A stretch of DNA of 64,000 nt, from positions 309,633 through 373,632 of the forward strand of contig NZ_SESI01000003.1 of assembly GCF_006861655.1 (NCBI RefSeq). Reading direction: 5' to 3'. The position numbers were made by a program, and so were the translations under genes. This document shows, in pieces, positions 27,628 through 54,637 of the stretch (positions are counted from its first letter, which is position 1; each line of letters begins with the position of its first letter). Source of the stretch: Halonotius roseus. GTDB lineage: Archaea; Halobacteriota; Halobacteria; Halobacteriales; Haloferacaceae. The notes below the pieces were generated by a model. It did no database searches. It had not been told where the DNA came from and saw only the letters and a list, made by a program, of their open reading frames with translations.

Positions 27628-27958
27628 GGTTGTGTTCAGATAAGCCGAGGAAACTGGAACCATCTTGAAAGCCCCCGGCGTCTCGGCTCCCGGGACTCGC
27701 TGCGCTCCTCACTGCGTTCGCTGTGGTGCTTGCGTCGTCCGGGTTCGCCGAGACACCGGCCCCTTTCAGTCCCACCCGCGTCAGTGGGTCAGGCAGCTGC
27801 AGCCGGGGCGGGACTGAAAGGGGCGACGCGCTGGAGGAAGGCGGGCGACGCAAGCACTGCAGGGCCGGAGGCCCGAAGCGCGCAGCGAGCCCCCCGACTC
27901 CAGCGCGTCGGGGCTTTCAAGATGTTCTCAATCCAATCGCACTACTCTGAACTGTACC
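27628..27958. mobile_element. fold-back MITE-like element, copy 1
   Basis: 331 bp. The ends are imperfect inverted repeats: GGTTGTGTTCAGATAAG on the left and, on the other strand of the right end, GGTACAGTTCAGAGTAG. The left end contains GTGTTCAGATAAG exactly as in the IS6-type element at 44901-45597. Inside is a large imperfect inverted repeat, with CCCCTTTCAGTCCC at 27760-27773 mirrored by GGGACTGAAAGGGG at 27810-27823. Flanks match in 5 of 8 bases (ATCGTCAC / TCTGTCAC), a possible decayed target duplication. Its right end is 47 bp before the HTH-CBS gene. No coding capacity accepted. Confidence 0.7.
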
Positions 27959-28005
27959 TCTGTCACCGACGAAAGCTTTTCAATAACCTGGGGTAATAGG
28001 TCTGT

Positions 28006-28545
28006 ATGGAGCTGCCGACGCCACAGGATCTCAAGGAACGCCGCACCGCCTTGGAACTCACCCAAAGCGCGCTCGCCGAGGCCGCCGGCGTCTCACAGCC
28101 GCTGATCGCCCGCATCGAGGGTGGCGATGTCGACCCACGGCTCTCGACACTCCGGCGGATCGTCAACGCCTTAGACGAGGCCGAAGGCGAGGTCGTCCGC
28201 GCCGCCGACCTGATGAACGAGACCGTCATCAGCGTCGCCCCCGACGACGCCGTCGGCGACGCCGTCGAGACGATGGAGTCCGAAGCCTACTCCCAACTCC
28301 CGGTGTTACAGAACGGCGTTCCGGTCGGCTCGATCAGCCAACACGATGTGATCCAGGCCGGCGAGGATGTCAGCGACTACCCGGTCAGCGAGGTGATGAG
28401 CGAGTCGTTCCCGACGGTCAGCGAGGATGCCACCGTCGATGAGATCCGCAATCTCCTAGAACACTACAAGGCCGTGATGGTCACCCGCGGCGGCGAAACA
28501 GTGGGGATCATCACCGAAGCCGATATCGCCGCCCAGTTTTCCTGA
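28006..28545 (+). CDS. XRE-type HTH regulator with tandem CBS domains
   Basis: 179 residues. The N-terminal HTH (about 6-60) reads ERRTALELTQSALAEAAGVS, then QPLIARIEGGDVDPRLSTLR. Two CBS motifs follow: ADLMNETVISVAPDDAVGDA to GVPVGSISQHDV, and VMSESFPTVSEDATVDEIRN to GETVGIITEADI. Such proteins are thought to couple nucleotide or SAM sensing to transcription. The MITE-like element ends 47 bp upstream, so its upstream control region has been replaced; a TATA-like TTTCAATAACC remains between them. Confidence 0.88.
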   Translation: MELPTPQDLKERRTALELTQSALAEAAGVSQPLIARIEGGDVDPRLSTLRRIVNALDEAEGEVVRAADLMNETVISVAPDDAVGDAVETMESEAYSQLPVLQNGVPVGSISQHDVIQAGEDVSDYPVSEVMSESFPTVSEDATVDEIRNLLEHYKAVMVTRGGETVGIITEADIAAQFS

Positions 28546-28550
28546 GCCCA

Positions 28551-29693
28551 CTACTCCTCAACAACATCCCAGATGAACTCATCAGACGCATCGTCGCCCT
28601 CGGCCAGCGTCGTCGACGCAACGTCGTCAGCAGCGTCATCGATCGCAGCGTCCGTCATCGACTCTGCATCTGTGGTCGAGTCGGTTGACGGCTCCGTGGT
28701 CAACTCAGCCGACAACGCTTCGCTCGACTCGGGCGACGGCTCCGGCATCCCGAAATCGATCGACTGATCGGCACCGCCGTCGGTTTGCTGTGTCGGGCCG
28801 GGCGTCTCGACCCCGCGACCGACCTGTACCGCCGCCGGTGCCTCCGTGGGGCGATCCGCGATCGTGACGGGTGAGCCCGGCGCGTCGTCAGCAGAAACCG
28901 CCGAGCCGGTCTCGGTTGCCAACGCGGATGCGGCCCCCCGGCCGGTTGCCCAGGCAGCCGACATCCGCAGCCAAAACACGAGGACGACGCTGACGGCCAG
29001 CGTCAGCAACCCACCGATGGCAGCCAACGCCACATCGTATATCCCGGCAAGCCCCGAAACGACGAAAAGCGGCGTTACCAACAGCGGGCCGACGGTCAAC
29101 AACCCCATAGCGATCAGCCAGCCGTTGAGATAGGGCCCGGACAGCGAGACAGCCAGAATCCGGCGGGGATCGATCGCCGCCTGTACCGATCCGGTCGCAG
29201 CCAACACCGCCCGCGCAGCGGGGCGGAGATACAGGTAGACGAGCAGATAACACAGCAGGCCAAAACCGCCGATCAGGATGGCGACCGCCGCGAGCACCTG
29301 CGGAGCCCCCCCAAATCCCGGCGGATCGAGCACCGTCGCCACACCGGCTCCGGCAGCAAGACCGAGACACACCGCTGCCGGTAGGGCATACACCACCGAG
29401 ACGGCGGTCGATCGCACACCATCCCGAAGCAGTGATCCCCAGCGCACGAACGAGGGTGCCACGGGGCGATCGTCGATGCCGGCGGCGACGACGCCAACCA
29501 GATACCCCCGCACCACCAGGCTCAACAGGAAGACGATCGGGGTCACGGCGATCCCGATGCGAGGATCGACGGTCAGCAACGCGATCCAGCCGACGGCAGC
29601 GATCGCCGTCGCCCCGGTAAGCACTGTCCCGACCAGGAGCGTCCCTGTCGCATCGGCGGCACGGGACGGGACGCGGAGGGCCTCACTCAGCAT
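28551..29693 (-). CDS. DUF4013-like membrane protein with acidic C-terminal tail
   Basis: 380 residues from ATG 29693 (a GTG one codon earlier is also possible). About six helices fill residues 18-255, with a PSFVRWGSLLRDGVRSTAVS loop typical of DUF4013 proteins. The last ~125 residues (GSAVSADDAPGSPV onward) are disordered, Ser/Thr/Asp/Glu-rich. No catalytic motif is seen. It ends 5 bp from the convergent HTH-CBS gene. Role unknown; possibly membrane organisation. Confidence 0.7.
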   Translation of the reverse strand: MLSEALRVPSRAADATGTLLVGTVLTGATAIAAVGWIALLTVDPRIGIAVTPIVFLLSLVVRGYLVGVVAAGIDDRPVAPSFVRWGSLLRDGVRSTAVSVVYALPAAVCLGLAAGAGVATVLDPPGFGGAPQVLAAVAILIGGFGLLCYLLVYLYLRPAARAVLAATGSVQAAIDPRRILAVSLSGPYLNGWLIAMGLLTVGPLLVTPLFVVSGLAGIYDVALAAIGGLLTLAVSVVLVFWLRMSAAWATGRGAASALATETGSAVSADDAPGSPVTIADRPTEAPAAVQVGRGVETPGPTQQTDGGADQSIDFGMPEPSPESSEALSAELTTEPSTDSTTDAESMTDAAIDDAADDVASTTLAEGDDASDEFIWDVVEE

Positions 29694-29749
29694 CACCTAT
29701 ATCCAGAGGCTCCCGAGATTTATAGCTGCGTGTTGTGGCGACAGTGTGG

Positions 29750-31882
29750 TCAGTCGATGATCTCGCTGCCGCCGGCCGGCAGATGCTCCTGGATCAGATC
29801 GGCGCTGGCGACCGACCGGACGAAGCTCTCATCAGCAAAACGACCCTTGAGCTCGCGGTAGCAGCGTTTCGCCATATCGTTTTGGGCGTACTTGCCGGGC
29901 TGGAGTTGGAGGTGGGTCGCGGCGGCCTCGGCGACCGCGGCGGTCGGCCCGCCGACAACACGGGTCTGTGGGGTACACTGAATGCCGACCGCGAGATCGA
30001 CAGCGAGATCGTTGAAGTAGGTGCGGTCACCGCGAATCACGAAACTCCCTTTCTCGATGTACTCACCGCTTTCCGGCGTTTTCGACACCTGATCGGGCTC
30101 AACCATATACACGTCGCCCGCGTGTTGGCCGGCCTTCCAGACCGACGAGTGCGAGACGGCAAACTGTGCGGCCTGCCGAAGCGTTGATTCGGGAAAGTCG
30201 ATCTCCTTGGATGCCTCGCTCGGCCCGGTCGCTTTTAGGATCGTCACCGGGCCGCCGTGGGCTTGGGCGTGGAAGAAGCGGTCGCCGCCGCTCATATATT
30301 TCTTCACCAATTCTTCGTTCTGATCGGCGTTGCGGCCGCCGATGACGAGAAAGCCGTCGGTCGTATGGAACCACCGGAACCGCTCGTACCACCCCTCATC
30401 GCGTTTGATCGGGATCGACGACCGCGAGAGCCAGTCGGTGTCGGCGAACTCGCTGTCCGCGTCGCTGTCGTCATCGTCGTCGCTCTCGCCATCGCTGTCG
30501 CCGTCGTCGGCTTCCCACGCATCGCGGCGAGCTTTGACAGCCGCTAACTCCTCGCGGGTCTGCTCGATGGCTTCCTTCGCGCCGTCCTTCTTTTCCTCGA
30601 TGCGTTTGGCCTCCTGATACAGTTGGTCGGCATTTTTCTCGACGCCGATAGTCGCATCGAGTGTCGCCCGCGTGTCGCCGATATCGACCGTGACCGTCCC
30701 CTCCGAGCCGTCGACCCCGACGACAGCCTCGGCCGCTGGCAACCCCTCGTCGGCGGCCTCCTGTAGGGTCGCATCAATGTCGTCCCACGGGACGCCGTCC
30801 TCGCGGGCCTCTTGGATCGTGGTCAGGATCTCGTCGACACGGTCGTACTGCTCGTAGAGAGCCTCGGCTTTGGCGCGCTCGTCGGCGGCCTGTTGCTCGA
30901 AGCCTTCGATAGCGCCTTCCTGCTGGTCGATGATGCGCTGCTGTTTGGCGATCTCGGCCTCGAAATCCGGTTTGCCATCGTCTGGCTCGGAGCTATCGCT
31001 GTCGTCGTCGGAGCGGTCAAACCGGTAGAAGTAGTCGTCGACAGCAGTGGTAAAATCGTCGTAGTGTTCCTCGTCGAGCCCTGCGGCCTCGCGTTCGGCC
31101 AGGGGGAACGGCGTCACGTCAACAACGCGGTCGTCATCGAGATAGATGCGGGGCTCGAAATCGCCGGTGTCGACGCGGCTCGCCAGCTCGTCGAGGGCGT
31201 CGTAGATGGCGCGGTACTCCTCGTCGGTGGCGTCCTCGATCTGGGTTTCTTTCTCGACGCCGGCGCGGGTACAGACCTCCTCTGCGTACAGCCCGCCGAG
31301 GTTGAGCTGGGTGGCCAGCGTCCGCACCACGTCGCTGGTGGAGTCGTCCATCTCGCGGACGAACGCGTCGAAGCCGACCGACAGCGGGTCGATCCGAGAG
31401 TCGGGGTACTCGTACTGGGAGCCGGGGGCGATAGTGCGGGATTTCAGCCGGACGGTCTGGAGGCTCTGAATGACTTCGCCGGTCTCGTCGAGGGCGGCGA
31501 TGTTGCCCTCGCCGAACAGTTCGACGACGAGCGTGGTGTTGGCATCGGGGCGTTCGAACTCGAAGACGAGGATGCGGTCGAACTCGTACTGGGTGACGCC
31601 GGCGAAATCCGCGCCGCCGAGTCGGTTGCGAAGCATCTTGGCGAAGTTCGGCGGCCGGCCAGGTGCGTCAGCAACGTGGTCGGGGTCGGCCATGTGGGCG
31701 CGTTTGACCGCGCCGACTTCGAGCATGAGTTCGACCCGGCCGCGGTCGAAATCCCGCATCTTGAGCCGGAGCAGATCGTCGCCGTAGAGATACGCCTTGT
31801 CGACCTTCGCGCCCTCGTAGCGACCCATCTCGGTGACGAGGGCGGCAAGGTCGATGCTAGAAAGCTCCCGCTTGGCGTTCAT
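29750..31882 (-). CDS. rqcH: RqcH (NFACT/DUF814) ribosome rescue factor
   Basis: 710 residues. The start MNAKRELSSIDLAALVTEMG and KAYLYGDDLLRLKMRD belong to the NFACT-N domain. A helix-hairpin-helix and a long coiled coil follow (about 325-470). The NFACT-R (DUF814) domain is at about 500-600, with WYERFRWFHTTDGFLVIGGR and RFFHAQAHGGPVTILKATG. RqcH/Rqc2 proteins bind obstructed 50S subunits and add C-terminal alanine or alanine/threonine tails that mark nascent chains. An acidic linker sits between coiled coil and NFACT-R, as usual for halophiles. Confidence 0.93.
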   Translation of the reverse strand: MNAKRELSSIDLAALVTEMGRYEGAKVDKAYLYGDDLLRLKMRDFDRGRVELMLEVGAVKRAHMADPDHVADAPGRPPNFAKMLRNRLGGADFAGVTQYEFDRILVFEFERPDANTTLVVELFGEGNIAALDETGEVIQSLQTVRLKSRTIAPGSQYEYPDSRIDPLSVGFDAFVREMDDSTSDVVRTLATQLNLGGLYAEEVCTRAGVEKETQIEDATDEEYRAIYDALDELASRVDTGDFEPRIYLDDDRVVDVTPFPLAEREAAGLDEEHYDDFTTAVDDYFYRFDRSDDDSDSSEPDDGKPDFEAEIAKQQRIIDQQEGAIEGFEQQAADERAKAEALYEQYDRVDEILTTIQEAREDGVPWDDIDATLQEAADEGLPAAEAVVGVDGSEGTVTVDIGDTRATLDATIGVEKNADQLYQEAKRIEEKKDGAKEAIEQTREELAAVKARRDAWEADDGDSDGESDDDDDSDADSEFADTDWLSRSSIPIKRDEGWYERFRWFHTTDGFLVIGGRNADQNEELVKKYMSGGDRFFHAQAHGGPVTILKATGPSEASKEIDFPESTLRQAAQFAVSHSSVWKAGQHAGDVYMVEPDQVSKTPESGEYIEKGSFVIRGDRTYFNDLAVDLAVGIQCTPQTRVVGGPTAAVAEAAATHLQLQPGKYAQNDMAKRCYRELKGRFADESFVRSVASADLIQEHLPAGGSEIID

Positions 31883-31979
31883 ACAGATCCCTCACGACGA
31901 CGCGAAAAAGGGGTGTCGTTCCCGCCGCTGCGCTCAGTGCTCCGAAGGTTGTGGCGGACACCGTCTCCGGGAGATCAGC

Positions 31980-32240
31980 TCAGGCGACGAGGCGGGTGTC
32001 GGTTTCGGCGTCGGTATCGATCACCTGCCAGCCGTTGCCGCGGCAGGGGGCTTCGGTGAGCGTCACGGTCACCGTCTCACCGACCCCCAGCTCGTCGAGT
32101 GCGGCTGCGAGCCCCGAGGATGCGCAGTCGACGATCTGAAACGTCTCGTTAGCCTCAGACCGGAGAGTCATCGCGCCGTACCGGTTTAATTCGGTTGTGA
32201 CAGTCCCTGTTACCCGACGGGTGGTCTGAGAATTATTCAT
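31980..32240 (-). CDS. small haloarchaeal conserved hypothetical protein
   Basis: 86 residues from ATG 32240. It alternates strand-like segments (VTGTVTTELNRYGAMTLRSE, ETFQIVDCASSG, GETVTVTLTEAP) and ends CRGNGWQVIDTDAETDTRLV, suggesting a small beta-barrel. Cysteines at two positions might pair or bind metal. It is transcribed in the same direction as rqcH, about 100 bp upstream of it. I cannot name a function. Confidence 0.6.
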   Translation of the reverse strand: MNNSQTTRRVTGTVTTELNRYGAMTLRSEANETFQIVDCASSGLAAALDELGVGETVTVTLTEAPCRGNGWQVIDTDAETDTRLVA

Positions 32241-32407
32241 GATAGTATATTATGGTCTGGACGCAAAAAGATATCCCTGTTTGACACTCGGTGCCCACAA
32301 GCGAGATCAGACCACAGTGGTGACAGAGCGACCGCTATCAACCCAAATCAGCCGACAGGATAATCTCAGACAACCATCGACAAGCAAAACAGCCCGCGGC
32401 GAGGCGA

Positions 32408-32998
32408 TTATGAGAGCACGTAGGAGCTGCCGTCCTCCAGCTGGCCGGGAGCCTGTTTTTCCGTGACCGTTCGGCCGCCGGCCGGAGCCTCGATACTGAT
32501 CGAGACACTGTCGTCAGCCGCGAGCGTGTTTATTTCATCGATCTCTGTGAGATCCAGCTTTGCGATAATAACCTGATCCTGGTCGGAGAGTGTTGTTTCG
32601 CCATCCTCCAACCCTTGGGACTGGTTGTAGCTCAGCCCGGTGGTGGTCTCGTTGCCTGAAACGACGGTCGCAGCGTTGCTGTCGCCCATTGTGGCGATCG
32701 TGTAGGAGGTTTCGTTCATCTCAACAGCATCGGCCCCCGAGGCGAGGCGGATCTTTATTTCAAGCTCTTCGATCTCTGTCGTCCCGCCGCTCTCGTTGGC
32801 GACGCCGATAACGTCCGTGATCCGGAGAATATCGCTGACCTGCGATGTCGTCTCCTCGCCGGTCTGGGAGGCCTGCGACTGGAGCTGTCCGGCGGTCGTA
32901 ATCAACACACCGGAGGCGATCGCGGCGACGAGCACCATGGCTATGAACACAATAAGGGTTCCAATCCCGACCTGACCGCGTTCAGTATTGGTGAACAT
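32408..32998 (-). CDS. archaellin (archaeal flagellin)
   Basis: 196 residues from ATG 32998. The class III signal [20 protein letters not shown] shows the archaellin prepilin-peptidase site (RG before QVGIGT), followed by the hydrophobic helix that assembles the filament core. The globular part is Thr/Ser/Asn-rich with several N-x-S/T sequons (for example NES, NET, NQS) suitable for N-glycosylation. No other arl genes are nearby, so this is a stand-alone archaellin; it may be a minor subunit or be expressed under special conditions. The longer in-frame N-terminus is not used. Confidence 0.88.
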
Positions 32999-33065
32999 GG
33001 TGGTAAGGTTCGGTCGCCGCAGGTGATACGACACCAGTGCCTTGGTACTAACTATGCTCACGGCG

Positions 33066-33075
33066 GTATAAAACA
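33066..33075 (-). promoter_or_regulatory. TATA box of the archaellin gene
   Basis: Read on the minus strand as TGTTTTATAC, about 70 bp before ATG 32998, predicting a leader of roughly 40-45 nt, longer than for most genes here. Confidence 0.5.
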
Positions 33076-33192
33076 TTTCATGTACCTGCCAAGGATACGA
33101 TACGTTTGCGACACCGTGACACACCGGCGTTGATCAATGCGAATACCGGCGTCGATCACCATACCATCGACAGCCGGCCGGCGGCGCGTCCG

Positions 33193-35463
33193 CTACTCAA
33201 ACTGGCCGACAGCCGCGTCGATAACGGCTTCCTGTGCGGCCTCGCGTCGCCCCGAAAGGAACTCGATCCGGCCATCTCGGATCCCGCGGGCGGTCACGTC
33301 GGCCTCGGGGGCAGCCTCGGCGGCCGCATCGGCGACCGCCCGAAGATCGATCGGCTGGCTGCTCCGGAGATACAGCTCGTCCATCCCGACGCCGACCGTG
33401 AGGAACGCATCGTCGTCGCGTTCGACGTAGTGAAGCTCATCAAGGAGAAGCGTTGTCGGCGGGAAATCAAAGCGGTGGGTGTACTGATCGGTATCGAGCA
33501 CCGCAACCCCGACGCCATCCTGCTCACGGCGATCAAGGTTGGCCTGGGCGGTTTGGAGCTCATCGTCGAGCTTTTCGCGGAACTGTTCGGCGATGTGGCC
33601 GGCCAGCCCGCCGGCGTCGTCGAACAAGAGATCCGTGATCAGCTCGCGTTTGTCCTGGTAGGACTGGTAGTACGCCTCAAGGGCGATCGCCTCTCGGAGA
33701 TGTCGCACCTGCTCGGCGTCGTAGCCGGCGGCTTCGGCGGCCGCGGTGTAGGCCTCGGGGGTTTCCTCCCAGTAGCTTACGGCGGGAAGGTGCTGCATCT
33801 CCTCGCTCACGTCGGGGTTGAGCGCGGCCGCAAGCGTCGCCGCCAGCGCGCCGATCGAGAGATCAGGCGCGTCGCCGGTGACGACCTGTTCGGCAACATC
33901 GCCGACCTCGGGGTCGGCCGCGATCGCATCAAGGACGATCCGTTCGGCACCGTAAACGCCGAGCAGCCCGAGGCCGTCGACGGAATCGGCTGTCGAGCCC
34001 GCACCCACGAAACAAAACAGCGGGAGCTTCTCGTCGTGGCGATCCCGATCCTGCAGCATCTGGGTCGCGTCGTTGGTCGCATCGTCCATGTCGTAGACCG
34101 CGTTCTCCAGCGGCCGGCGGACGATGTAGTGGTATTCGGCATCGGAGCGGGCGTGTTCCTCACGGACGAGGGGCAACACAGCGCGCTCGATGGCCGCGCC
34201 GGCAACGTAGCCCGCGGCGGTCGCTGGGTGACGGATCACGACCGGCCGCGATTCCAGCACAGCCCGCCGGATCGCCTCGGCAACGTCCAGCAGCGACTCG
34301 CTCATCTCGGTGACCGTCTCGTGGTCGCCGATCGGATCGAGCTCGTCGGGCCGGGCACGGTCGGTCAGCGCGTCGGCCAGCCGATCGGTCACAGCCTCAC
34401 GATCCGACCCTTCCAGGGCGACAAGCTCCTCGGTTTCGACCTGGAGCTCGCCACGCCGCTGTTCGACCTCGCCATCGAGGCGGACGATATCGCCGACCTC
34501 GATGTCGGGGTAGGCGCGAACGCCGGCCTCGACGAACGCCGCACAGTCGACAACGCCGGTCTCATCGCGGAGCTCGAAGATCGTCGGCCCGCCGGTTTGG
34601 CGAACGCTGACGATCTCGCCCGCGAGCCGAACCGAGTCGCCGACCTTGTCAGTAAGTTCCCCGACAGTTGTGTCGGTGTCGACGGCGGCTGATTCGGAAT
34701 CCGGGCTGGCGGCATCGTCGTCGGACTCGGCAACAGCGACGGCCGCCGTACCGTTCGTCTCGGCGTCAGTGTCGGTGACTGACTCAGTGTCGGCAGTATC
34801 TGTATCAGCACCAGCGTCGTCAGCAACGGATTCAGCTTCCACGTCGTTGCTGTCGGCCTCGGTCACGGCTGCTGCATCACCGTCGGTTTCGGCTGGTGTC
34901 GGATCGTTCGTCGCCTCGATCGACGGTTCCTCGGAGGTGTCAGGTGTCGACGGTGTTTCGCTGTCAGTCGTCGGGCTGATAGGAGCATCGTCATCGCCCC
35001 CGGTCGTCGTGGAGGTGGCTGAGCCGCCGTCGGCGGTTGACTCAGCCGGTGTCGACTCCGGGTCTGGTGCCTCCGCATCGGCGTCGGGAAGGGTTTCGCC
35101 GTCGCCATCGAGGATGATCTTTCCGCGGAACTCGCGTTCGGACTGGCGGATCGATTTGGCGAGATCGATGTTGCCGTTATCCCGGACGTTGGTCACCTTG
35201 ACACAGACGGTGTCGCCGGGCTCCCAATCGAGACTGTCGAGTCGGCGATCGAGTTCGCTGCGGTGCAGCAGGCCGGTCACACCGGAGGCGATATCGACGA
35301 AGACGCCGAAGTCGGCGTAGCCGTCGACCGTTCCTGCATAGAAGCGGTTCGGAACGAGCTGCGCGGCGTTGTTGCCACGGAACTCGAAAAGGACATCTTC
35401 TTGATGGCTCTCGCAAACGTGGCCGCCGTCGACGGGCGTGCCACAGATGATACAGGTACCCAT
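33193..35463 (-). CDS. RecJ/Cdc45-like protein with zinc finger, S1 and OB domains
   Basis: 756 residues. The order is an N-terminal zinc finger (CIICGTPVDGGHVCESH, 4-20), an S1 domain (about 37-105, AGTVDGYADFGVFVDIASGV), and a long acidic linker (110-265). Then come an OB fold (about 270-350, GEIVSVRQTGGPTIFELRDE) and a DHH/RecJ-like region (about 390-756). The RecJ catalytic aspartates and DHH triad are not seen: motif I reads VVIRHPATAAGYVAGAAIER and the motif III site VLDAIAADPE. It is therefore likely non-catalytic, as in Cdc45-type members of the replisome. Haloarchaea encode several RecJ homologues. Confidence 0.75.
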   Translation of the reverse strand: MGTCIICGTPVDGGHVCESHQEDVLFEFRGNNAAQLVPNRFYAGTVDGYADFGVFVDIASGVTGLLHRSELDRRLDSLDWEPGDTVCVKVTNVRDNGNIDLAKSIRQSEREFRGKIILDGDGETLPDADAEAPDPESTPAESTADGGSATSTTTGGDDDAPISPTTDSETPSTPDTSEEPSIEATNDPTPAETDGDAAAVTEADSNDVEAESVADDAGADTDTADTESVTDTDAETNGTAAVAVAESDDDAASPDSESAAVDTDTTVGELTDKVGDSVRLAGEIVSVRQTGGPTIFELRDETGVVDCAAFVEAGVRAYPDIEVGDIVRLDGEVEQRRGELQVETEELVALEGSDREAVTDRLADALTDRARPDELDPIGDHETVTEMSESLLDVAEAIRRAVLESRPVVIRHPATAAGYVAGAAIERAVLPLVREEHARSDAEYHYIVRRPLENAVYDMDDATNDATQMLQDRDRHDEKLPLFCFVGAGSTADSVDGLGLLGVYGAERIVLDAIAADPEVGDVAEQVVTGDAPDLSIGALAATLAAALNPDVSEEMQHLPAVSYWEETPEAYTAAAEAAGYDAEQVRHLREAIALEAYYQSYQDKRELITDLLFDDAGGLAGHIAEQFREKLDDELQTAQANLDRREQDGVGVAVLDTDQYTHRFDFPPTTLLLDELHYVERDDDAFLTVGVGMDELYLRSSQPIDLRAVADAAAEAAPEADVTARGIRDGRIEFLSGRREAAQEAVIDAAVGQFE

Positions 35464-35517
35464 TTGTGCTGCAACTAGGGGGCCTCCCTTTAACGGTTGT
35501 CGAAACGCGGCTGTCAG

Positions 35518-36123: not shown

Positions 36124-36182
36124 ACCTAACTGTAGGGGCTGGAGCCGGTATGATAGTTACTAGTCGGCGTCGCCTGTGCTGG

Positions 36183-37406: not shown

Positions 37407-37487
37407 GGGTCGGGTTTCGCTGCCAGCCCCAAAACCGTTGCCGGGTGTCAGCCACGAACTGATAGGTGTCGAGCCCCACGGAACCAC

Positions 37488-37967: not shown

Positions 37968-38018
37968 CCAACCGAGGCTCGGCCACAGCGTTATCCCCGT
38001 CACGAACCTCAGAGAGGT

Positions 38019-38345: not shown

Positions 38346-38364
38346 TCGCCGTCTCGGGGTGTGA

Positions 38365-40176: not shown

Positions 40177-40311
40177 TCTTGTGGCCCCATTGACCGAAGG
40201 GTCACCTGATTCTATCGGTCGATCACGAACGAACGCCCTACCGTGGCCTGCGGCATCGCTCCCACGGATCACAACGACCAGAAAAACCCACGACGCGCCG
40301 ACAGCGATCCG

Positions 40312-41223: not shown

Positions 41224-41329
41224 GTCGGCGATGGTAATATAGCTCGGGGTAATGATATCGAATCTGATAGAACTACTCCGGCGACCGCGGTACGCCTGTC
41301 GGTGTCAGAACCGATTGGTACAGTCAGCG

Positions 41330-41608: not shown

Positions 41609-41612
41609 GGCG

Positions 41613-43163: not shown

Positions 43164-43277
43164 CGGCGACCACCAGTCATTGCTATCTCCGACAGCGACG
43201 GGCGCAAAAAGGGTTCCGCAACCGATTGTCGGCGGCAACAAACGCTCTTATCTGGGCGTTCACACAACGGGCGAACA

Positions 43278-44606: not shown

Positions 44607-44683
44607 CGCTGACCAGTAATCCGATTTTAGAAACGAGCAGTCAAGAAAGCGGGTCGACCAGCCGATCAAACCACGGCCTGGCG

Positions 44684-44866
44684 GAATGAAAGGGCGAGGC
44701 TCTCCCGGCGAACCCGGACGACGTAAGCACCGCAGGAGTGAGCAACGCGAACGACGAGGAGCGCAGCGAGCGCGCGGTCGACCGCAGGGAGACCGCGACA
44801 CGCTCGAACGGCGAGCGAAGCGAGCCGTGAGAGTCCCGGGAGCCGAGAGAGTCGAGGGCTTTCTAC
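44684..44866. repeat. half copy of the fold-back element
   Basis: About 180 bp closely matching the right half of the element at 54237-54637. Shared pieces include AAGCACCGCAGGAGTGA, CGACGAGGAGCGCAGCGAGC, GCGGTCGACCGCAGGGAGAC and the terminal GAGTCCCGGGAG. It starts with a degenerate GAATGAAAGGGC where the complete copies have GGGACTGAAAGGGG, and lacks the left half and both termini. The IS6-type element lies 34 bp away, so the original repeat was probably truncated. It fills most of the gap after the transporter gene. Confidence 0.65.
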
Positions 44867-44900
44867 ACCGATTCTCCTGAAAAATGTGCGATCTAGTACC

Positions 44901-45597
44901 GATAGTGTTCAGATAAGCTGGTTCCATGCGAAACTAAGCGATCTGATCCAGTCGTCGGCTGTCTCTGCTGAAGCATTGCTAAAACAATTCGAGAAACAGA
45001 TAGTTCGTCGTTTTATTTCTCTGAAGACACGTTCGACGGCATTCCGATTTCCATGTTTTTCATATCTGAAATCGTAGCCCTTTCGACGACACGCAGTTTG
45101 CAACGACTGGGCTCCATCAACCAGAAACACTGCCTCGGAAACGTCGTGTTTCTCACTGACTTCAGCGAGAAACGTCTGCGCTATCATCGTGGTTCTGGTT
45201 GGTTCAAGCGTTGTGTGGAGTAATTCGTTCGTTTCAGCATCAACTGCGGCATACAGCCAGTACTGTTCGTCGTTGAGCTGGATCACGGTCTCATCAACCG
45301 CAACGTGATCCGGGTTCTTTCCAGAGGCGGGCTGTAGATCGGCCTTATGAATCCAGTTATGCACAGTTGATCGAGCACGTTTGACACCGAATATTTCAAG
45401 AACTCGAACAGTATTCGAAAGTGAAAGTCCAGACAGATGGAGCTGAATACTGAGTTTCATCAGAAACGCCGGTGTCGCTTCTCGTTCCACAAAGTCTAAC
45501 TCGATTTGGCCGATACTACCGCTGAGGCGTCCGAATTCTGGCATAGGCACTCAGAAAGCGTGACGCCTCACTTTTCAATCCTTATCTGAACACCGCC
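44901..45597. mobile_element. IS6-type insertion sequence
   Basis: 697 bp bounded by the 8-bp direct repeat CTAGTACC (44893-44900 and 45598-45605), the duplication length made by IS6-family transposases. The inverted ends are GATAGTGTTCAGATAAG and, from the other side, GGCGGTGTTCAGATAAG (14 of 17 identical). It encodes one DDE transposase whose stop codon falls inside the left terminal repeat. The intact target duplication implies recent, simple insertion. The right end is 47 bp from the start of the nnr gene. Confidence 0.88.
44909..45544 (-). CDS. IS6-family (ISH-type) transposase
   Basis: 211 residues from ATG 45544 (MPEFGRLSGSIGQIELDFVE), a GTG two codons earlier being possible. The N-terminal HTH reads GLSLSNTVRVLEIFGVKRAR. 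The DDE triad is D in NPDHVAVDETVIQL, D in WLYAAVDAETNE and E in HGNRNAVERVFREIKRR. IS6 enzymes act by replicative transposition with co-integrate formation. The length is normal for the haloarchaeal members and no frameshift is seen, so it is probably active. Confidence 0.9.
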   Translation of the reverse strand: MPEFGRLSGSIGQIELDFVEREATPAFLMKLSIQLHLSGLSLSNTVRVLEIFGVKRARSTVHNWIHKADLQPASGKNPDHVAVDETVIQLNDEQYWLYAAVDAETNELLHTTLEPTRTTMIAQTFLAEVSEKHDVSEAVFLVDGAQSLQTACRRKGYDFRYEKHGNRNAVERVFREIKRRTICFSNCFSNASAETADDWIRSLSFAWNQLI

Positions 45598-45644
45598 CTA
45601 GTACCGACCCCGACGATTAACTCCCTCGACCACCGAGCGAGGGT

Positions 45645-47087
45645 ATGCTCACCGCCGACCGCATGGCGGCCGTCGACGCGAACGCGGCGGCCCTCGGTGT
45701 CCCACGCAAGCAGTTGATGGAGTCAAGCGGCAACGCCGTCGCCCGTGTCGTCCGACAGTACGTCGATCCCGGCGACCGCGTGATCCTCGTCTGTGGTCGT
45801 GGCAACAACGGGGGCGACGCCTTCGTCGCCGCACGGTTTCTCTCCGATTACGATGTCCAAGTCGCTCTGCTCGGCCATCCGGATCGCATCGGCACCGACA
45901 TCGCCCGCGAGAACTGGGCCGCCCTCCAAGCTGCCGAGATACCAACGACAACGATCACCGATTCGACCGCCATCGGCGACCTCGATCTCTCAGGGGTCGA
46001 CTGCATCGTCGACGCGATGCTCGGCACCGGCGTTACCGGCGCGCTCCGAGAGCCGGCGGCGACAGCAGCACGGGGGATCACCGCCGCCGACACACCGGTC
46101 GTCGCCGTCGACGTTCCCTCCGGCGTCGATGCCGACACCGGGCGCGCCGCCGGCAATGCGGTCGCGGCCGATCACGTCGTCACATTCCACGACACCAAGC
46201 CCGGTCTCGACGCCCTCGATGCCGAGGTGACCGTCGCCGACATCGGGATCCCGGCAGCCGCCGAGCGGTTCGTTGGCCCGGGCGATCTCCTGGGCCGCGA
46301 TCGGGTCGCCGAGAGCCACAAGGGCGACAACGGCGAGCTGTTGGTGATCGGTGGTGGCCCCTACACCGGCGCGCCGGCGTTGGCCGGCCAGGCCGTTCTC
46401 CGAGCCGGTGCCGATCTCGTTAATGTCGCCTGCCCCGAGTCGGTCGCGCCGCAGGTACAGGGGTACAGCGAGAACCTGATCGTCCACCCCCTCGCCGGCG
46501 AGGAAGTGACACCAAGTGTGGTCGACGATCTGCTGGCACGAGCCGCCGGTGTCGACGCGGTCGTCTGTGGCCCGGGGCTCGGCGACAGCGAGTCGACACG
46601 GTCGGCGGTCGCCGCATTTCTCGACGCCTACGACGGTCGAGTCGTCGTCGACGCCGACGCCCTGAGCGTCGTCCCCGATGTCGACACCGACGCAACGTTG
46701 GTCTGTACGCCACACCAAGGCGAGTTGGTCGGGATGGGCGGGCCGAGTGCCGACGACCGCGAGCAGTTGGCCGACCAGGTTAGCGATTTCGCGGCCGAGC
46801 TCGGGCACACGGTGCTGGTGAAAGGAACCCACGACATCATCAGCGACGGTGAGACAACCCGGATCAACCGCACCGGCAACCCCGGGATGACCGTCGGCGG
46901 CACCGGCGACGTGCTGGCGGGGGTGGTCGGCGCACTTCTGGCGACCGAGGCACCACGGGCGGCCGCGTCGGTCGGTGCCTACGTGACCGGCCACGCCGGC
47001 GATCTGGCGGCCGACGCCGTCGGCGACAGCCTCGTAGCGACAGATCTACTCGACCGGCTCCCGGAGGCGTTGACAACCGATGAGTGA
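45645..47087 (+). CDS. nnr: bifunctional NAD(P)H-hydrate repair enzyme (epimerase + dehydratase)
   Basis: 480 residues. The N-terminal YjeF domain (about 1-210) with VCGRGNNGGDAFVAARFLSD and AVDVPSGVDADTG is the epimerase. The C-terminal ribokinase-like domain (about 220-475) with HKGDNGELLVIGGGPYTGAP, TPHQGEL and NPGMTVGGTGDVLAGVVGAL is the ADP- or ATP-dependent dehydratase. Together they repair hydrated NADH/NADPH. It overlaps moaC by 8 bp. The IS6 element sits 47 bp upstream, so little native promoter is left. Confidence 0.93.
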   Translation: MLTADRMAAVDANAAALGVPRKQLMESSGNAVARVVRQYVDPGDRVILVCGRGNNGGDAFVAARFLSDYDVQVALLGHPDRIGTDIARENWAALQAAEIPTTTITDSTAIGDLDLSGVDCIVDAMLGTGVTGALREPAATAARGITAADTPVVAVDVPSGVDADTGRAAGNAVAADHVVTFHDTKPGLDALDAEVTVADIGIPAAAERFVGPGDLLGRDRVAESHKGDNGELLVIGGGPYTGAPALAGQAVLRAGADLVNVACPESVAPQVQGYSENLIVHPLAGEEVTPSVVDDLLARAAGVDAVVCGPGLGDSESTRSAVAAFLDAYDGRVVVDADALSVVPDVDTDATLVCTPHQGELVGMGGPSADDREQLADQVSDFAAELGHTVLVKGTHDIISDGETTRINRTGNPGMTVGGTGDVLAGVVGALLATEAPRAAASVGAYVTGHAGDLAADAVGDSLVATDLLDRLPEALTTDE

Positions 47088-47598: not shown

Positions 47599-47622
47599 CG
47601 TACAGCAGTTTATTTGGCCGAG

Positions 47623-48884: not shown

Positions 48885-48970
48885 GTCCAGCCAAAGCGGC
48901 GAGACGGCGATAAAGCCAGCGACGCGGGGCCAGCGACGTGTTTATTCCACGCCGACACCTCCGGAAGCCT

Positions 48971-49582
48971 ATGATGCTGCCAACCCACGCGCTGGTCGGA
49001 CTTGCGATCGGCGCGCCGCTGCTGTGGCTGGCCCCCGAGTCCGCGACCGCCGCGCTGATCGGCGGGCTCTGCGGGGGGATCTGGCCGGATCTGGATCTGT
49101 ACGTCGGCCACCGGCGGACGCTCCACTACCCGACGGGTTATTCGCTAGCGGCGATCCCAGCGGTGATCGTCGCGGCCGTTGTTGGGTCTCCGCTTGCGAT
49201 CGGGCTCGCTGTTGCTGTCGTCGCCGCCGCCGCCCACTGCCGGATGGATCGCTACGGCGGCGGCCTCGAACTCCGACCGTGGGAGAACACCTCTGAACGA
49301 GCGGTCTACGACCACGTCGCCGGCGAGTGGCGCGCGCCCAAACGGTGGGTGCGGTACGACGGCGCGCCCGAGGACGTGGGGCTCTCGCTGCTGGTCGGCC
49401 TCCCGCTTGCCGCCGTGGTACCCCAGACGTTCCGCTGGCTCGTCGTCGTCGCCATCATCGTCGCCATTGGCTACGGGCTGCTTCGGCGGTGGCTCGCCGC
49501 GCTCGCACCGGCGCTCGCCGAGTTTGTCCCCGATCCGGTCGACGAATACGTCCCTGAGCGGTATCGGCGCGACGACCAGTAG
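48971..49582 (+). CDS. YdjM-like membrane-bound metal-dependent hydrolase
   Basis: 203 residues from ATG 48971 (MMLPTHALVGLAIGAPLLWL). The early histidine in LPTHALVG and the GGLCGGIWPDLDLYVGHRRT segment (PDLD ... H) are the metal-ligand pattern of the YdjM/LexA-binding membrane hydrolase superfamily. Helices continue to about 90, then a soluble stretch RWVRYDGAPEDVG and two more helices. Family enzymes are phospholipase C-like by fold; substrate unknown. Confidence 0.78.
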   Translation: MMLPTHALVGLAIGAPLLWLAPESATAALIGGLCGGIWPDLDLYVGHRRTLHYPTGYSLAAIPAVIVAAVVGSPLAIGLAVAVVAAAAHCRMDRYGGGLELRPWENTSERAVYDHVAGEWRAPKRWVRYDGAPEDVGLSLLVGLPLAAVVPQTFRWLVVVAIIVAIGYGLLRRWLAALAPALAEFVPDPVDEYVPERYRRDDQ

Positions 49583-49647
49583 TTCGAAGTGACAAATGCG
49601 TTAGCTACTGTTCGAAACGACAAATATAATGATTAGACTTAGCTAAT
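49582..49647 (+). promoter_or_regulatory. tandem repeat region before the GDT1 gene (candidate operator)
   Basis: The 16-mers GTTCGAAGTGACAAAT (49582-49597) and GTTCGAAACGACAAAT (49610-49625) repeat at a 28-bp offset; each is followed by TTAGCTA (49601-49607 and 49639-49645), the second being inside the palindrome TTAGCTAA. The second copy covers the probable TATA (AAATATAA, ~49622-49629) and the downstream TTAGCTA falls near the expected transcription start, a classic place for repression. Confidence 0.6.
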
Positions 49648-49660
49648 TTTCGCGTACTGA

Positions 49661-50299
49661 ATGGAGTCGTTTATCAGCATCGTTGGCACCGCGTTTCTGC
49701 TGCAGCTCACCGCGCTGCCCGGCGAAAAGGGACAGCTCGTCATCGCCGGATTGGCGACACGCTACAACCCCTACATGGTCGTTGCCGGCGCGTCGACAGC
49801 CTTCGGTGGCTGGACGGTCATCGAGATTCTGCTGGGCAACGCGCTGAAGGGCGCGCTGCCGGCGGTGTATCTCGACGCCATCACCGCGGGGCTGTTTTTC
49901 ATCTTCGGGGGCTGGCTGTTGTATACGACCGTCGACAGCGTCGAGACACCAAAAGTTGCCCCCGAAGGCAGCCGGCTGGCCGCGATCCAATCACGGCTTC
50001 CGGAGCGACTCCATGGGTTTCTGCCCTCGTTTTGGTTCATGGTCTTCGGCGAGTTCGGCGACAAAACACAGTTGGTCACGATTGGGTTGGCCGTCCAGTA
50101 CGGCGCGACACCGGCGATCTGGATCGGGGAGATGTTGGCGATCATCCCGGTGAGTCTGGCGACCGCGCTGTTTTTCAGCAAAACAGCCCACCGGCTCGAC
50201 CGAACGTGGTTGCACCGGCTAGCTGCCGGAACCTTCGTGCTGTTTGGGCTCGATATCGTCGCCTCCTACACGATCGGGCGGTCGTTTCTCCCGCTGTAA
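49661..50299 (+). CDS. GDT1/UPF0016 (TMEM165-like) membrane transporter
   Basis: 212 residues with about six helices in two halves. The second half holds the canonical cation motif in FMVFGEFGDKTQLVTIGLA. The first half has ALPGEKGQLVIAGLATRYNP at the equivalent place, so the E-x-G-D-K-(T/S) motif there is altered. GDT1 proteins move Mn2+ or Ca2+ out of the cytosol, normally through both motifs. Its promoter carries duplicated palindrome-like sites, consistent with metal regulation (inferred). Confidence 0.85.
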   Translation: MESFISIVGTAFLLQLTALPGEKGQLVIAGLATRYNPYMVVAGASTAFGGWTVIEILLGNALKGALPAVYLDAITAGLFFIFGGWLLYTTVDSVETPKVAPEGSRLAAIQSRLPERLHGFLPSFWFMVFGEFGDKTQLVTIGLAVQYGATPAIWIGEMLAIIPVSLATALFFSKTAHRLDRTWLHRLAAGTFVLFGLDIVASYTIGRSFLPL

Positions 50300-50341
50300 G
50301 GGCGATCGCTGCGACACCGGCTGTCGGACGGCACAACGGCG

Positions 50342-51637
50342 TTAGGCCGATTCGACGGGGGTGAGCGCGGCCGCCTTCGATCTGGCCTGCTCGACGATCG
50401 CCGGTCGGGCATCGAACTCCAACAGCACCTGGTCGCCCTCGTAGGATTCGGTCTCGACGTGGGCGTGATCGTAGAGCCACGAAACAAAGCTCATCGTGTC
50501 ATCGGCCATCGGCACCAGCAAGCGTTCGTGTTCCCAGTCGGGGAGTTCGGCTTCGACGCGCGCCCGGAGCGTGTCGATGTTCTCGCCGGTCTTCCCCGAG
50601 ACGGTGATCGGGTTCGGCGCAAGCGCGGATAGCGCGGCCTGTTTGTCGGCCAGTTCCTCCGCCGAGAGCAGGTCGGTCTTGTTGAAGACGGTGAGAATCG
50701 GTGCCTCGTTGCGCTCGTGAAGCGTATCGTGGGAGGTGACAAGCTTCTCGCGCATCTCGGCAACCGGCTCGCTGGCGTCGACGACGAGCAACACCAGATC
50801 CGCCCGATACACCGAATCCAGCGTCGACTCGAAGGATTCGACAAGCCAGTGGGGGAGATCCGAGATGAAGCCGACAGTGTCGGTCAACAACACCTCCCGT
50901 CGCTCCAGTTCGGCCCGCCGGGTTGTCGTCCCAAGCGTCGTAAACAACATATCCTGGGATTCGGCAACCTCGTCGAGATCGGGATGTTTCTCGGCGTTTT
51001 CGTCGACATCGAGCTCGGCCGCCAGCTGGCGGAGCAGCGTCGACTTGCCGGCATTGGTGTACCCCGCGAGGGCAACCAGATCAAACCCGGAGTCACGACG
51101 CTCGGCGCGTCGCTGGGCTTCCTTCTCGGCGATCGAATCCAGCTCGTCTTTGATCGAGGCGATCTGGGATTTGATATCCTGTTCGCGGCTCTCGTCGTAC
51201 TCGCCGAGCCCCATGAACCCCGGCCGCTCGTCGCGTTTGGCAAGGCTCGCTTTTACCGACGCCCGCGGCAGCTCGTAGCGAAGCTCGGCGAGTTCGACCT
51301 GGAGTTGGGCTTTCCGGGTCTGGGCCCGCTGCCCGAAGATCGTGAGGATCAGCGTAAACCGGTCGAGCACCTCGGTCTCCTCGGGGAGGATGCGCCCGAT
51401 ATTGAACATCTGGTAGGGGCCAACCTCGTTGTCGATGATGACCGTCTCGGCGTCGGTACGGACGACCAGCTCGGCGAGCTCAGTTACCTTCCCCTCACCG
51501 AAGTGGTGGGCCGAATCCTCTTTTCTGGTCTGGGTGAGCTCGCCGACGACCTCGTAGCCGGCTGCCGCCGCGAGATCACGGAGCTCAGACAGATCAGCCG
51601 TGCCGCTGTCGACGCGCTTGGCGAGGACAGCTTTCAT
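50342..51637 (-). CDS. hflX: GTPase HflX
   Basis: 431 residues. An N-terminal HflX domain (about 1-175, with KEDSAHHFGEGKVTELAELV, then ETVIIDNEVGPYQMFNI) precedes the G domain. P-loop G1 is ALAGYTNAGKST, G3 is LLTDTVGFISDLPHWLVESF, and G4 is TVFNKTDL. HflX binds 50S subunits and splits stalled or idle ribosomes. The C-terminal domain (about 345-431) contains TESYEGDQVLLEFDARPAI. The gene is divergent from SDO1's neighbour set and lies near another ribosome factor, sdo1. Confidence 0.95.
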   Translation of the reverse strand: MKAVLAKRVDSGTADLSELRDLAAAAGYEVVGELTQTRKEDSAHHFGEGKVTELAELVVRTDAETVIIDNEVGPYQMFNIGRILPEETEVLDRFTLILTIFGQRAQTRKAQLQVELAELRYELPRASVKASLAKRDERPGFMGLGEYDESREQDIKSQIASIKDELDSIAEKEAQRRAERRDSGFDLVALAGYTNAGKSTLLRQLAAELDVDENAEKHPDLDEVAESQDMLFTTLGTTTRRAELERREVLLTDTVGFISDLPHWLVESFESTLDSVYRADLVLLVVDASEPVAEMREKLVTSHDTLHERNEAPILTVFNKTDLLSAEELADKQAALSALAPNPITVSGKTGENIDTLRARVEAELPDWEHERLLVPMADDTMSFVSWLYDHAHVETESYEGDQVLLEFDARPAIVEQARSKAAALTPVESA

Positions 51638-51753
51638 CTGGGGCCTCCACGCCGGTGGGGTACCGACCGGTCGAACCGAGGATTACTAACGGCCAGTGCG
51701 AACCACGTCCATACCGAACGATGGGCCGGAAGCATGAAGAATGGCTCGGCGGA

Positions 51754-52479
51754 TCACCGGGTTTTGATGTCGTCTTCGTCTTTGATCACCCGCGTTTCGG
51801 CCTTGCCGCTGGTGAGCTCGTTGACCATGTCGTAGAAGTCGTTCTGGAGGCCGGCGGGGAAGGTGACGACGCCGACCCACGAGCCGTCGCTTTGCCACTC
51901 CTCGCGCTCTAACTCGCCGTACTGCCGCACCTCAGCCTGGCCGCTGCCGGCGTAGTCAGCCGGGAGCTGTACCGCGATCGTTACCTCATCAAACCGGATC
52001 GGGATGACCGGGCGGAGGTCTTCGAGGGCTTCATCGACCTGCTCGGAGACGGGCTCCATCGGATCGATGCGGAAGCCGGCTTCTTCTAGGGCGCGTTCGA
52101 TCCGTTCCGGCGGGTGCGGGGCGTCATCCATCTGGGGGTTGACCGCGTTGCGCGCGATCTGGTTGATAAGCTGTTTGCGCTTCTGTTCCTGCATCTCGCG
52201 TCGCTGCTCGGCGGTGATCTGGATCTCGCCGCGCTTGATCACCTCCGGGATGATCTCCAGTGGCTCAGTGGTTCCAAACACATCCTCCAGATCGGTTTCG
52301 GCGGGCCGATCACCGCGGGAGGCGTCCTCAAACACATCCTCGGCGGCGATCACGTCCTCAAGCTCGCCGTCGAACTCGTCGCGTTTGATTTCGAGGGCGG
52401 CGTCGGGATCGATCAGTACCTCAAAGCGCGCGCCGTGGGATTCCAGCCGCGCGGTGACTGCGTCCTCAAGGGAGATCAT
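51754..52479 (-). CDS. sdo1: SDO1/SBDS ribosome maturation protein
   Basis: 241 residues. The three-domain SBDS layout is visible: domain I (about 1-95) with [20 protein letters not shown] and [20 protein letters not shown]; helical domain II (about 96-165) with [20 protein letters not shown]; domain III (about 170-241) with [23 protein letters not shown]1 works with the EF-2-like GTPase in large-subunit maturation and anti-association release. In many archaea it sits with proteasome alpha and exosome genes; that context is absent here. Confidence 0.92.
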
Positions 52480-52537
52480 ACCAAGGCGTTACGCCGCGGG
52501 TGGTAAAAACTCTCCCCGCGAGTCGGTTGCGTACCCC

Positions 52538-52720
52538 TTACTCAAGGTACGTCGCCCGGCAGTCGTCGGAACAAAAGTGGGTGTGTTCGATCTGTCCGTC
52601 CTCGACAGTCGCAACGACGCGATGGGTTGGCAGTTCGATGATACGTTCGCCGCAGACCGCACACTCGGGGGCGTCAGCCTCGTCGACGTCCTCCCCGATA
52701 TCGGATGTCGGATCGACCAT
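52538..52720 (-). CDS. small zinc-finger protein
   Basis: 60 residues. The metal pattern is C-x-x-C in ECAVCGERIIEL, followed by THRV, H-T-H-F-C-S-D-D-C near the end (EHTHFCSDDCRATYLE). This resembles the TRASH/small zinc-finger proteins widespread in haloarchaea, which act in regulation or as metal-dependent partners. It lies upstream of sdo1 on the same strand and downstream of glycerate kinase, possibly in one transcript. Confidence 0.8.
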   Translation of the reverse strand: MVDPTSDIGEDVDEADAPECAVCGERIIELPTHRVVATVEDGQIEHTHFCSDDCRATYLE

Positions 52721-52780
52721 ATCGGAACAGGTTGGCCTCGGTACGTTAAGCTGTCTACTCGTCGTGACGGATGTTGCCGG

Positions 52781-54187
52781 TTACGACGGCTCGTCGACGA
52801 CAACGACCCGCAGATCGTTGACGTTCGTCCCGGTCGACCCGGTCTCGATGCGCGCGCCGGCCGCATCGAGGGCCGCGGCCGCGTCGTTTTCGGCGAGCGC
52901 GCGCCGTCCAACCCGCGGGGCGACCGTCTCGCTGTCGACGATCCCGCCGGCAGCGTCGGTCGGGCCATCGATCCCATCGGTGTCGACAGCGGCAACGACA
53001 GTGTCGCTACCCACGTTGCCAGCGTCGCTGCTGTCGTCGACCGCGGCCGCAGCTGCAGCAAGTTCAACCGCGGCCGACAACACGAACTCCTGATTCGGGC
53101 CGCCAACTCCGTCGCCGTCGACGGTGACAGTTGTCTCGCCGCCGGAGACGACGACCGCCGGCGGCGCGAGCGGCTGTCCGCTGGCCCGGATCTCCTCGGC
53201 GATAGCGACCTGTGTTTTCGCCGCCTCGCGTGCCTCGCCCCGAACCCGCGAGGAGAGGACGAGCGGGTCGAAGCCAGCCTCGCGCGCCCGGTCGGCGGCG
53301 GCCCGAACCGCGGTCAGCCCGTCGCCGATGATCGTCGTCGTCACCGACCCAAAGATCGGGTCGCCCGGCGTCGGCGTCTCAGCGATCTCGCCGGCCGCAC
53401 CGCTGTCGAGATGAGCGGCGACCGCCGCCGGCACGTCGCAGTCGTAGCGGTCGAGCACCTCGCGGGCGTCGGCGTAGGTCGTCGGATCGCCAACGAGGGG
53501 GCCGCTGGCGATCGTCGCGGGATCGTTGCCGACGACATCGCTGATGACGAGCGAACGGATAGCGGCTGGCTGGGCCGCCGCCGCGAGCCGGCCGCCCTTG
53601 ATCGCCGAGCAGTGTTTGCGCACCGCGTTGATCTCATCGATCGTCGCACCTGACGCCAACAGCGCGTCGGTCGTCGCCTGGAGGTCGGCCAGCGAGAGTT
53701 CCCCGGCGGGGGCTGCCATGAGCGCGCTGCCGCCGCCGGTGATGACACCGAGGATCAGCGTCGACTCGTCGGCTACCTCGGCGGCGTCCAACAGCCGACG
53801 GGTACTCTCGACGCCGCGTTCGCTGGGGATCGGGTGGTCGCCAGCGAGCACCTCGATGCGGTCGGTGTCGACGGGCGCGGGATCGATACCCGCAGGCGAG
53901 GCGTCCGGTAGATCGGTGATAACGAGCCCACCGTCAACGGCGTCGCCGAGGCTCGCCTCCAGCTCCGCGGCGACGACGGCCGCGGCCTTCCCGCCGCCGA
54001 GGACGATCACCTCGTCGTAGTCAGCGAGATCGTCCGCGTCGTCGCCGATAGTCAGCGTTCCGTCAGTCAGTGACACGGCCTCACGAGTCAGTCGGGCCGG
54101 GTCGGCGGCCTCGATCCCGGCGGTGAGAGCATCGAGGGCAACCTCGTGAGCGGGGGTAGCTGGCAGGTGGTCGCGGTTCCGGATCAC
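52781..54187 (-). CDS. glycerate 2-kinase (DUF4147/MOFRL family)
   Basis: 468 residues starting at GTG 54187 (MIRNRDHLPATPAHEVALDA). The N-terminal DUF4147 part contains VIVLGGGKAAAVVAAELEA, GDHPIPSERG and LGVITGGGSALMAAP, with the GGGSA substrate loop. The C-terminal MOFRL domain carries VVSGGETTVTVDGDGVGGPN, then QEFVLSAA. It phosphorylates D-glycerate, usually at the 2-hydroxyl. The 401-bp fold-back element ends 49 bp upstream of its start, leaving a minimal promoter. Confidence 0.88.
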   Translation of the reverse strand: MIRNRDHLPATPAHEVALDALTAGIEAADPARLTREAVSLTDGTLTIGDDADDLADYDEVIVLGGGKAAAVVAAELEASLGDAVDGGLVITDLPDASPAGIDPAPVDTDRIEVLAGDHPIPSERGVESTRRLLDAAEVADESTLILGVITGGGSALMAAPAGELSLADLQATTDALLASGATIDEINAVRKHCSAIKGGRLAAAAQPAAIRSLVISDVVGNDPATIASGPLVGDPTTYADAREVLDRYDCDVPAAVAAHLDSGAAGEIAETPTPGDPIFGSVTTTIIGDGLTAVRAAADRAREAGFDPLVLSSRVRGEAREAAKTQVAIAEEIRASGQPLAPPAVVVSGGETTVTVDGDGVGGPNQEFVLSAAVELAAAAAAVDDSSDAGNVGSDTVVAAVDTDGIDGPTDAAGGIVDSETVAPRVGRRALAENDAAAALDAAGARIETGSTGTNVNDLRVVVVDEPS

Positions 54188-54236
54188 TGTCAGACAACTG
54201 TGGTGGACGGACGAAAAAACGTCGGGGCGACCACCG

Positions 54237-54637
54237 GATCGTGTTCAGAGAAGTCGGTGAAACTGGAACCATCTCGAAAGCCCCGACTCGCTGGCGTCGG
54301 GGGGCTCGCTGCGCGCTTCGGGCCTGCGGCCCTGCAGTGCTTGCGTCGCCCGCCTTCCGCCAGCGAGTCGCCCCTTTCAGTCCCGCCCGATTGCGGCTGC
54401 TTGGCCTGCCAACGGGGTGGGACTGAAAGGGGCCGGCGGCTCGGCGTGCCCGGACGATGCAAGCACCGCAGGAGTGAACAACGTGAACGACGAGGAGCGC
54501 AGCGAGCGCGCGGTCGACCGCAGGGAGACCGCGGTCGCTCGAACGGCGACCGAAGAGAGCCGTGAGAGTCCCGGGAGTCGAGACGCCGGGGGCTTTCGAG
54601 GTATTCGCAATCCAATCGCACTACTCTGAACAGTACC
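54237..54637. mobile_element. fold-back MITE-like element, copy 2 (complete)
   Basis: 401 bp with ends GATCGTGTTCAGAGAAG and, on the other strand, GGTACTGTTCAGAGTAG. The flanking 8-mers GACCACCG (54229-54236) and GACCGCCG (54638-54645) match at 7 of 8 positions, consistent with an 8-bp target duplication like that of the IS6-type element. The core palindrome is CCCCTTTCAGTCCCGCCC (54371-54388) opposite GGTGGGACTGAAAGGGG. Left segment AAACTGGAACCATC and right segment ATCCAATCGCACTACTCTGA match copy 1. No gene is accepted inside. Confidence 0.75.

Follow-up and report, generated by a model that had tools for sequence, protein, structure and literature searches.

In haloarchaea, IS6-family insertion sequences and MITEs with the same ends mostly lie in one register at the upstream edge of BRE/TATA, probably through target choice by the transposase

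Introduction

Inverted ends of the GGnnnTG type are named for the IS6 family in the available text of one source (PMC6807381). The insertion sequence (IS) described here resembles the archaeal clade A of that family (PMC7986276, PMC6807381) in its transposase family, its length of ∼700 bp, its GG-starting inverted ends and its 8-bp duplications. In the available portions of those two sources a promoter register is not mentioned, and the effects on expression given there are those of bacterial hybrid promoters in which the element supplies the -35 box, whereas the elements reported here stay outside BRE/TATA. Among MITEs, those of Haloquadratum walsbyi (PMC3119063) are likewise haloarchaeal and non-coding, and have their ends and duplication length in common with a transposon that supplies the enzyme; the targeting reported in the available text of that source is of other mobile elements, and a promoter register was not found in it. 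A fixed distance to genes is described for the Dictyostelium element TRE5-A, for which 80.2% of mapped integrations fell within 47 ± 3 bp of tRNA genes and whose ORF1 protein contacts TBP in vitro, according to the accessible part of the source (PMC5391098).

The window, by which we mean the whole 64,000-nucleotide stretch of the Halonotius roseus genome analysed here, contains one IS and two MITEs, each located just upstream of a gene. The original prediction held that such elements select targets at the upstream edge of core promoters.

Materials and Methods

Copies in the genome of the window (G000; haloarchaeal, 2.56 Mb) were sought using the 331-bp MITE, the IS and end patterns, and their flanks were then retrieved. 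A loose single-end score returned 4311 candidates and was useless; paired ends were used instead. A codon model was used for gene calling and gave 483 genes over 521 kb, and a BRE/TATA weight matrix was trained on 276 element-distant promoters of the same stretches.

The sample from relatives comprised 102 IS copies, of which 42 were picked by hand (20 from genome G017, a few with stops) and 60 were taken in order of E-value, the latter excluding copies with stops, most partial copies, and those near contig ends or already in the sample. Five copies without ends found and 28 with duplications below 7/8 were excluded from counts.

Results

The following features were located at the three sites (positions are those of the window):

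27620..27627 and 27959-27966, flanking 8 bp of the 331-bp MITE: left ATCGTCAC, right TCTGTCAC, 5/8 alike
27628..27958, no strand assigned, 331-bp MITE (family F1) with IS6-type ends and a fold-back interior; further copies in the genome
27970..27983, plus strand, BRE/TATA match of the HTH-CBS gene; offset 11 from the edge, score 9.3
28006..28545, plus strand, HTH-CBS gene; ATG at 28006, 47 bp from the element edge
44893..44900 and 45598-45605, target duplication of the window IS, CTAGTACC, 8/8
44901..45597, no strand assigned, IS6-family insertion sequence of 697 bp, by transposase profile and ends
44909..45544, minus strand, IS6 transposase P0001, 211 aa; NF033587 at 189.1 bits (cut-off 125), PF13610
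45609..45622, plus strand, BRE/TATA match of nnr; offset 11, score 3.2 (under the threshold of 4)
45645..47087, plus strand, nnr (NAD(P)H-hydrate epimerase/dehydratase); ATG at 45645, 47 bp from the IS edge
52781..54187, minus strand, glycerate 2-kinase-like gene (DUF4147/MOFRL); GTG at 54187, 49 bp from the element edge
54213..54226, minus strand, BRE/TATA match of the glycerate kinase gene; offset 10, score 9.3
54229..54236 (GACCACCG) and 54638-54645 (GACCGCCG), target duplication of the 401-bp MITE, GACCRCCG, 7/8
54237..54637, no strand assigned, 401-bp MITE (family F1), by its ends

The IS was assigned to the IS6 family by its transposase, and its inverted ends are of the GGnnnTG type (right GGCGGTGTTCAG; left GATAGTGTTCAG, with one change) and its perfect duplication has the 8 bp of that family. 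The two shorter elements have the same ends and duplication length, their duplications being 5/8 and 7/8 alike, and a protein search of the window's genome found no IS6 match at either position. The original description of one IS6-type and two fold-back elements was therefore borne out as one IS and two MITEs, as was a 6-bp outer extension of their shared ends: the ends of all three fit GGTNNTGTTCAGAKWAG with small variations. On the strength of these ends we infer that the two MITEs were moved in trans by an IS transposase. Apart from the window IS, one long IS6 copy was found in this genome (C2:96805-97501); its transposase is broken over two frames and has a stop, so that intact enzyme for the MITEs may come from the window IS alone.

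A fold-back core (GGGACTGAAAGGGGC-like) is common to both MITE interiors (27760-27825 and 54370-54440) and recurs many times in the genus. An old fold-back copy, similar to MITE family F3, adjoins the left end of the window IS (44626-44898), and most of it is also present in the relative G001, which is without the IS; this promoter edge may have been struck twice. Elsewhere in the genome, a copy at C2:386043-386275 has two left ends in tandem, 15 bp apart, which would fit insertion of one copy into the end of a second.

The predicted distances from element to start codon (47 bp for the 331-bp MITE, 47 bp for the IS and 49 bp for the 401-bp MITE) were correct. A doubt raised with them, that the start codons might be wrong, is eased for nnr and the HTH-CBS gene, whose ATG starts are backed by conservation in relatives, and the GTG start of the glycerate kinase gene is based on the gene call and protein families.

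The genome yielded a catalogue of 49 copies: 31 have both ends, a further 15 are old copies of MITE family F3 (∼218 bp), and 3 are single-ended. Drawn from searches with a single MITE, the IS and end patterns, the catalogue is not exhaustive; the old fold-back copy adjoining the window IS, for one, escaped it. For the single-ended and old copies the edge positions are approximate, and copies at C2:433906 and C3:122823 were omitted since their ends could not be placed. An outward start codon was found 44–56 bp from the edge in 29/49 copies (paired 20/31, old 9/15, single-ended 0/3), compared with 5.6–6.7% expected at random intergenic or harmless points, and 45–51 bp from the edge in 25/49, compared with 3.1–3.7% (binomial P about 1e-21 to 1e-25). 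The peak in distance that the original prediction called for across all copies is thus present. Four copies lie between divergent genes at 48–54 bp from both starts (C1:661899-662239, C2:641828-642044, C2:437651-438046 and C1:786423-786640).

Compact intergenic space accounts for part of this peak. Conditioned on the intergenic regions struck, for the 38/49 copies with usable neighbours, a start at 44–56 bp was observed in 26 versus 14.4 expected (paired copies, 19/26 versus 9.7), an excess of only about twofold. In regions of at least 120 bp the signal was weak (5/16 versus 2.4, P 0.07; paired 4/10 versus 1.5, P 0.03).

The register to the promoter box is a sharper and far stronger test than the distance to the start codon. 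Anchored on the element edge, AT content peaks at 15–16, 20–23 and 39 bp (65/98 edges, those facing a start), and this profile repeats that of the 276 control promoters, with peaks at -34, -29 to -26 and -11/-10; the two sets of positions place the first base outside the edge at about -49. The 8 duplicated bases sit just upstream of BRE and abut it on the promoter side, so the core promoter stays whole. The best matrix match exceeded 4 at 58/98 edges, in 35 of these 58 at offset 9–13. At a threshold of 3, matches at offset 9–13 were found in 27/31 paired copies and 36/49 of all copies, the 13/49 without one being mostly old or decayed; at a threshold of 4 the counts were 25/31 and 34/49, versus 0–4 and 0–6 in shifted windows. 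The box motif starts 10–12 bp outside the edge, most often 11, which in many genes is ∼46–50 bp from edge to start codon.

For the paired copies, the 27/31 in register compare with an expectation of 5.6 when other harmless positions of those intergenic regions are taken and of 1.9 over all positions within 150 bp, and none of 200,000 simulations was as high. Pure chance was ruled out as the source of the spacing by these tests and those on start distance. Where the start gap is longer (three genes, at 94, 127 and 138 bp), the box retains its offset from the edge, and a copy at C1:164062-164278, with its edge 49 bp away from where a tRNA-Ser gene begins (5′ end), has a box scoring 11.9 at offset 11. 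The start codon was therefore dropped as the anchor in favor of BRE/TATA. Of the original prediction, the offset just upstream of BRE/TATA stands, and the spacing is refined in that its fixed point is the box, not the start codon. No comparable single-offset peak was seen when flanks were read in the reverse sense, and there was no obvious motif in the duplicated 8 bp at 41 sites, which had been picked by BRE/TATA score such that only positions outside the motif are informative.

The register was also observed in relatives. Ends were found for 97/102 sampled copies, 69 of which had duplications of at least 7/8 (64 perfect), from 27 genomes, 19 genera and 8 families. The best match exceeded 4 at offset 9–13 in 41/69 (exactly 11 at 30 edges; 0–5 in other 5-bp windows), and these 41 come from 20 genomes, 15 genera and 7 families. 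A match above 3 at offset 10–12 was present in 55/69 and absent in 14/69, versus 0–7 in other 3-bp windows, and the mean matrix score was +4.3 at offset 11 compared with -7.1 (sd 0.8) elsewhere. In a test against expectation, 54/68 copies were in register versus 3.8 expected, and displacing the insertion point by a single base lowered the count at exactly offset 11 from 48 to 18 or 12 (n=68; one of the 69 copies was without flank). From named genomes, 17 copies with ends found (43 loci, 22 tried) included 14 in register, among them 7/7 with perfect duplications, two of which have the same flank. Four distant haloarchaeal IS6 copies (L169–L172; 36–38% identical) with perfect 8-bp duplications had no box at 10–12 (4/4), and the trait may therefore belong to one clade. 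Both the genome of the window and its relatives thus have the fixed, sharp promoter distance of elements targeted to promoter complexes, and the genome-wide and cross-genus data favor the proposed selection of targets at the upstream core-promoter edge.

All three sites are free of the element in some relative. At nnr, G001 has no IS; its target carries a few changes, and the promoter is in place. G003, a relative of the same genus, is without the 401-bp element and has a single target copy (GACCGCCG) with the promoter in place. Five relatives are without the MITE at the HTH-CBS gene; there a conserved block starts near the promoter-side edge and the sequence upstream of it varies. The promoters were thus already present and preceded the elements.

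Discussion

Haloarchaeal IS6 insertion sequences, and the MITEs sharing their ends, lie mostly in one register at the upstream edge of BRE/TATA, for which we regard target choice by the transposase, with predicted docking on TBP-TFB, as the probable cause. The transposition complex would be guided by promoter-bound TBP-TFB, reading the protein complex instead of naked DNA, and the site would be chosen as the element inserts, not sorted out by selection afterwards. Insertion at the upstream edge would leave the 8 duplicated bases on the promoter side and displace the sequence further upstream. Sparing the core promoter is likely a safe-site strategy in a gene-dense genome, and it is plausible that the elements have replaced the upstream regulatory sequence of the genes.

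It is possible, if on balance unlikely, that the transposase, unaided by host factors, itself reads the BRE/TATA sequence or how readily it bends, as a DNA motif is indeed matched at fixed spacing. Consistent with such direct reading, copy L190 splits a purD-like gene into a part with GARS_A (just under cut-off) and a part with GARS_C, and yet a box-like sequence scoring 5.4 is present at offset 11, where there is no known promoter. Equal-scoring look-alikes are used less, however. Away from elements there are 1553 intergenic BRE/TATA-like matches, of which 255 are at a called promoter, and after matching for score 26/37 element-adjacent matches are at called promoters versus 9.0 expected; this excess favors occupied promoters over naked sequence, although neither number is sharp, given missed genes and RNA promoters. 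The preference for called promoters is an indirect pointer to a putative contact of the transposase with TBP/TFB.

Random insertion followed by purifying selection that spares genes and core promoters, with compact intergenic regions placing the survivors near -48, has a small probability in our estimation. In its support, only 2/69 copies in relatives (L190 and L300) passed the coding test on both sides, and compactness alone yields 14.4 of the 26 start-codon matches (n=38). The second of these copies splits an acyl-CoA dehydrogenase gene and has no box (score 1.0). Selection of this kind does not readily produce a box register about fivefold above other harmless positions of the same regions (27/31 versus 5.6), nor one that is sharp to one base and present in copies with perfect duplications. 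IS4/5-type (PF01609) copies from two of the same genomes had no best match at offset 9–13 (0/12; Fisher P 8e-5 versus 41/69). This set comprises the 12 of 27 loci that belong to multi-copy groups, without the 15 singletons, and within it L218 and L229 have doubtful ends and L241 looks truncated. The box-like sequence of L190 inside a gene also speaks against survival as the cause, but one case could be chance.

Retention of the elements as insulators or upstream regulators is very improbable. Old, decayed copies do keep the spacing (9/15 at 44–56 bp), as this would have it, but the interiors are unrelated (the IS and two MITE families), the promoter is present in element-free relatives, and either end may face the promoter: 36 tnp-5′ versus 20 tnp-3′ ends (a weak preference, P 0.044), and 8 and 6 for the ends of F1 MITEs. 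Insertion into open, nucleosome-poor promoter DNA generally, equally remote in our view, would place elements upstream of promoters as observed, but predicts a zone tens of bases wide and is already hard to keep against a one-base register.

Target choice at the promoter would account for the many IS6 MITEs that haloarchaeal genomes carry despite their gene density. It suggests that IS6-type elements can sever genes from upstream regulatory DNA, and old insertions could be used as promoter markers, for example for genes with leaders and for RNA genes. An earlier report of an IS register to BRE/TATA was not found in the open-access literature searched; a near one-base register of this kind would, as far as that search shows, constitute undescribed promoter-guided integration in a prokaryote.

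With somewhat less assurance, we lean toward the broader proposal that archaeal IS6 transposases tether to promoter-bound TBP-TFB and place insertions at the upstream edge of that platform with a precision of one base, on the kind of platform and at the ∼47 bp known from eukaryotic RNA polymerase III-targeted retrotransposons, and that the insertions record sites of initiation complexes. Based on the accessible parts of the sources, TRE5-A is similar to the window elements in its position ∼47 bp upstream of the gene, and differs in being a non-LTR retrotransposon at RNA polymerase III genes, whereas here a DDE DNA transposon occurs at ordinary archaeal promoters and contact with TBP is only presumed (PMC5391098). 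Yeast Ty3 is guided by a platform of TBP and the TFIIB-like Brf1, a relative of archaeal TBP-TFB, yet goes into RNA polymerase III genes at their start site, while the haloarchaeal elements lie ∼48 bp upstream (PMC5911963). If true, the proposal would provide a parallel to Ty3 and TRE5-A on an archaeal TBP/TFIIB-type platform, and transposon docking could therefore be studied with purified archaeal proteins.
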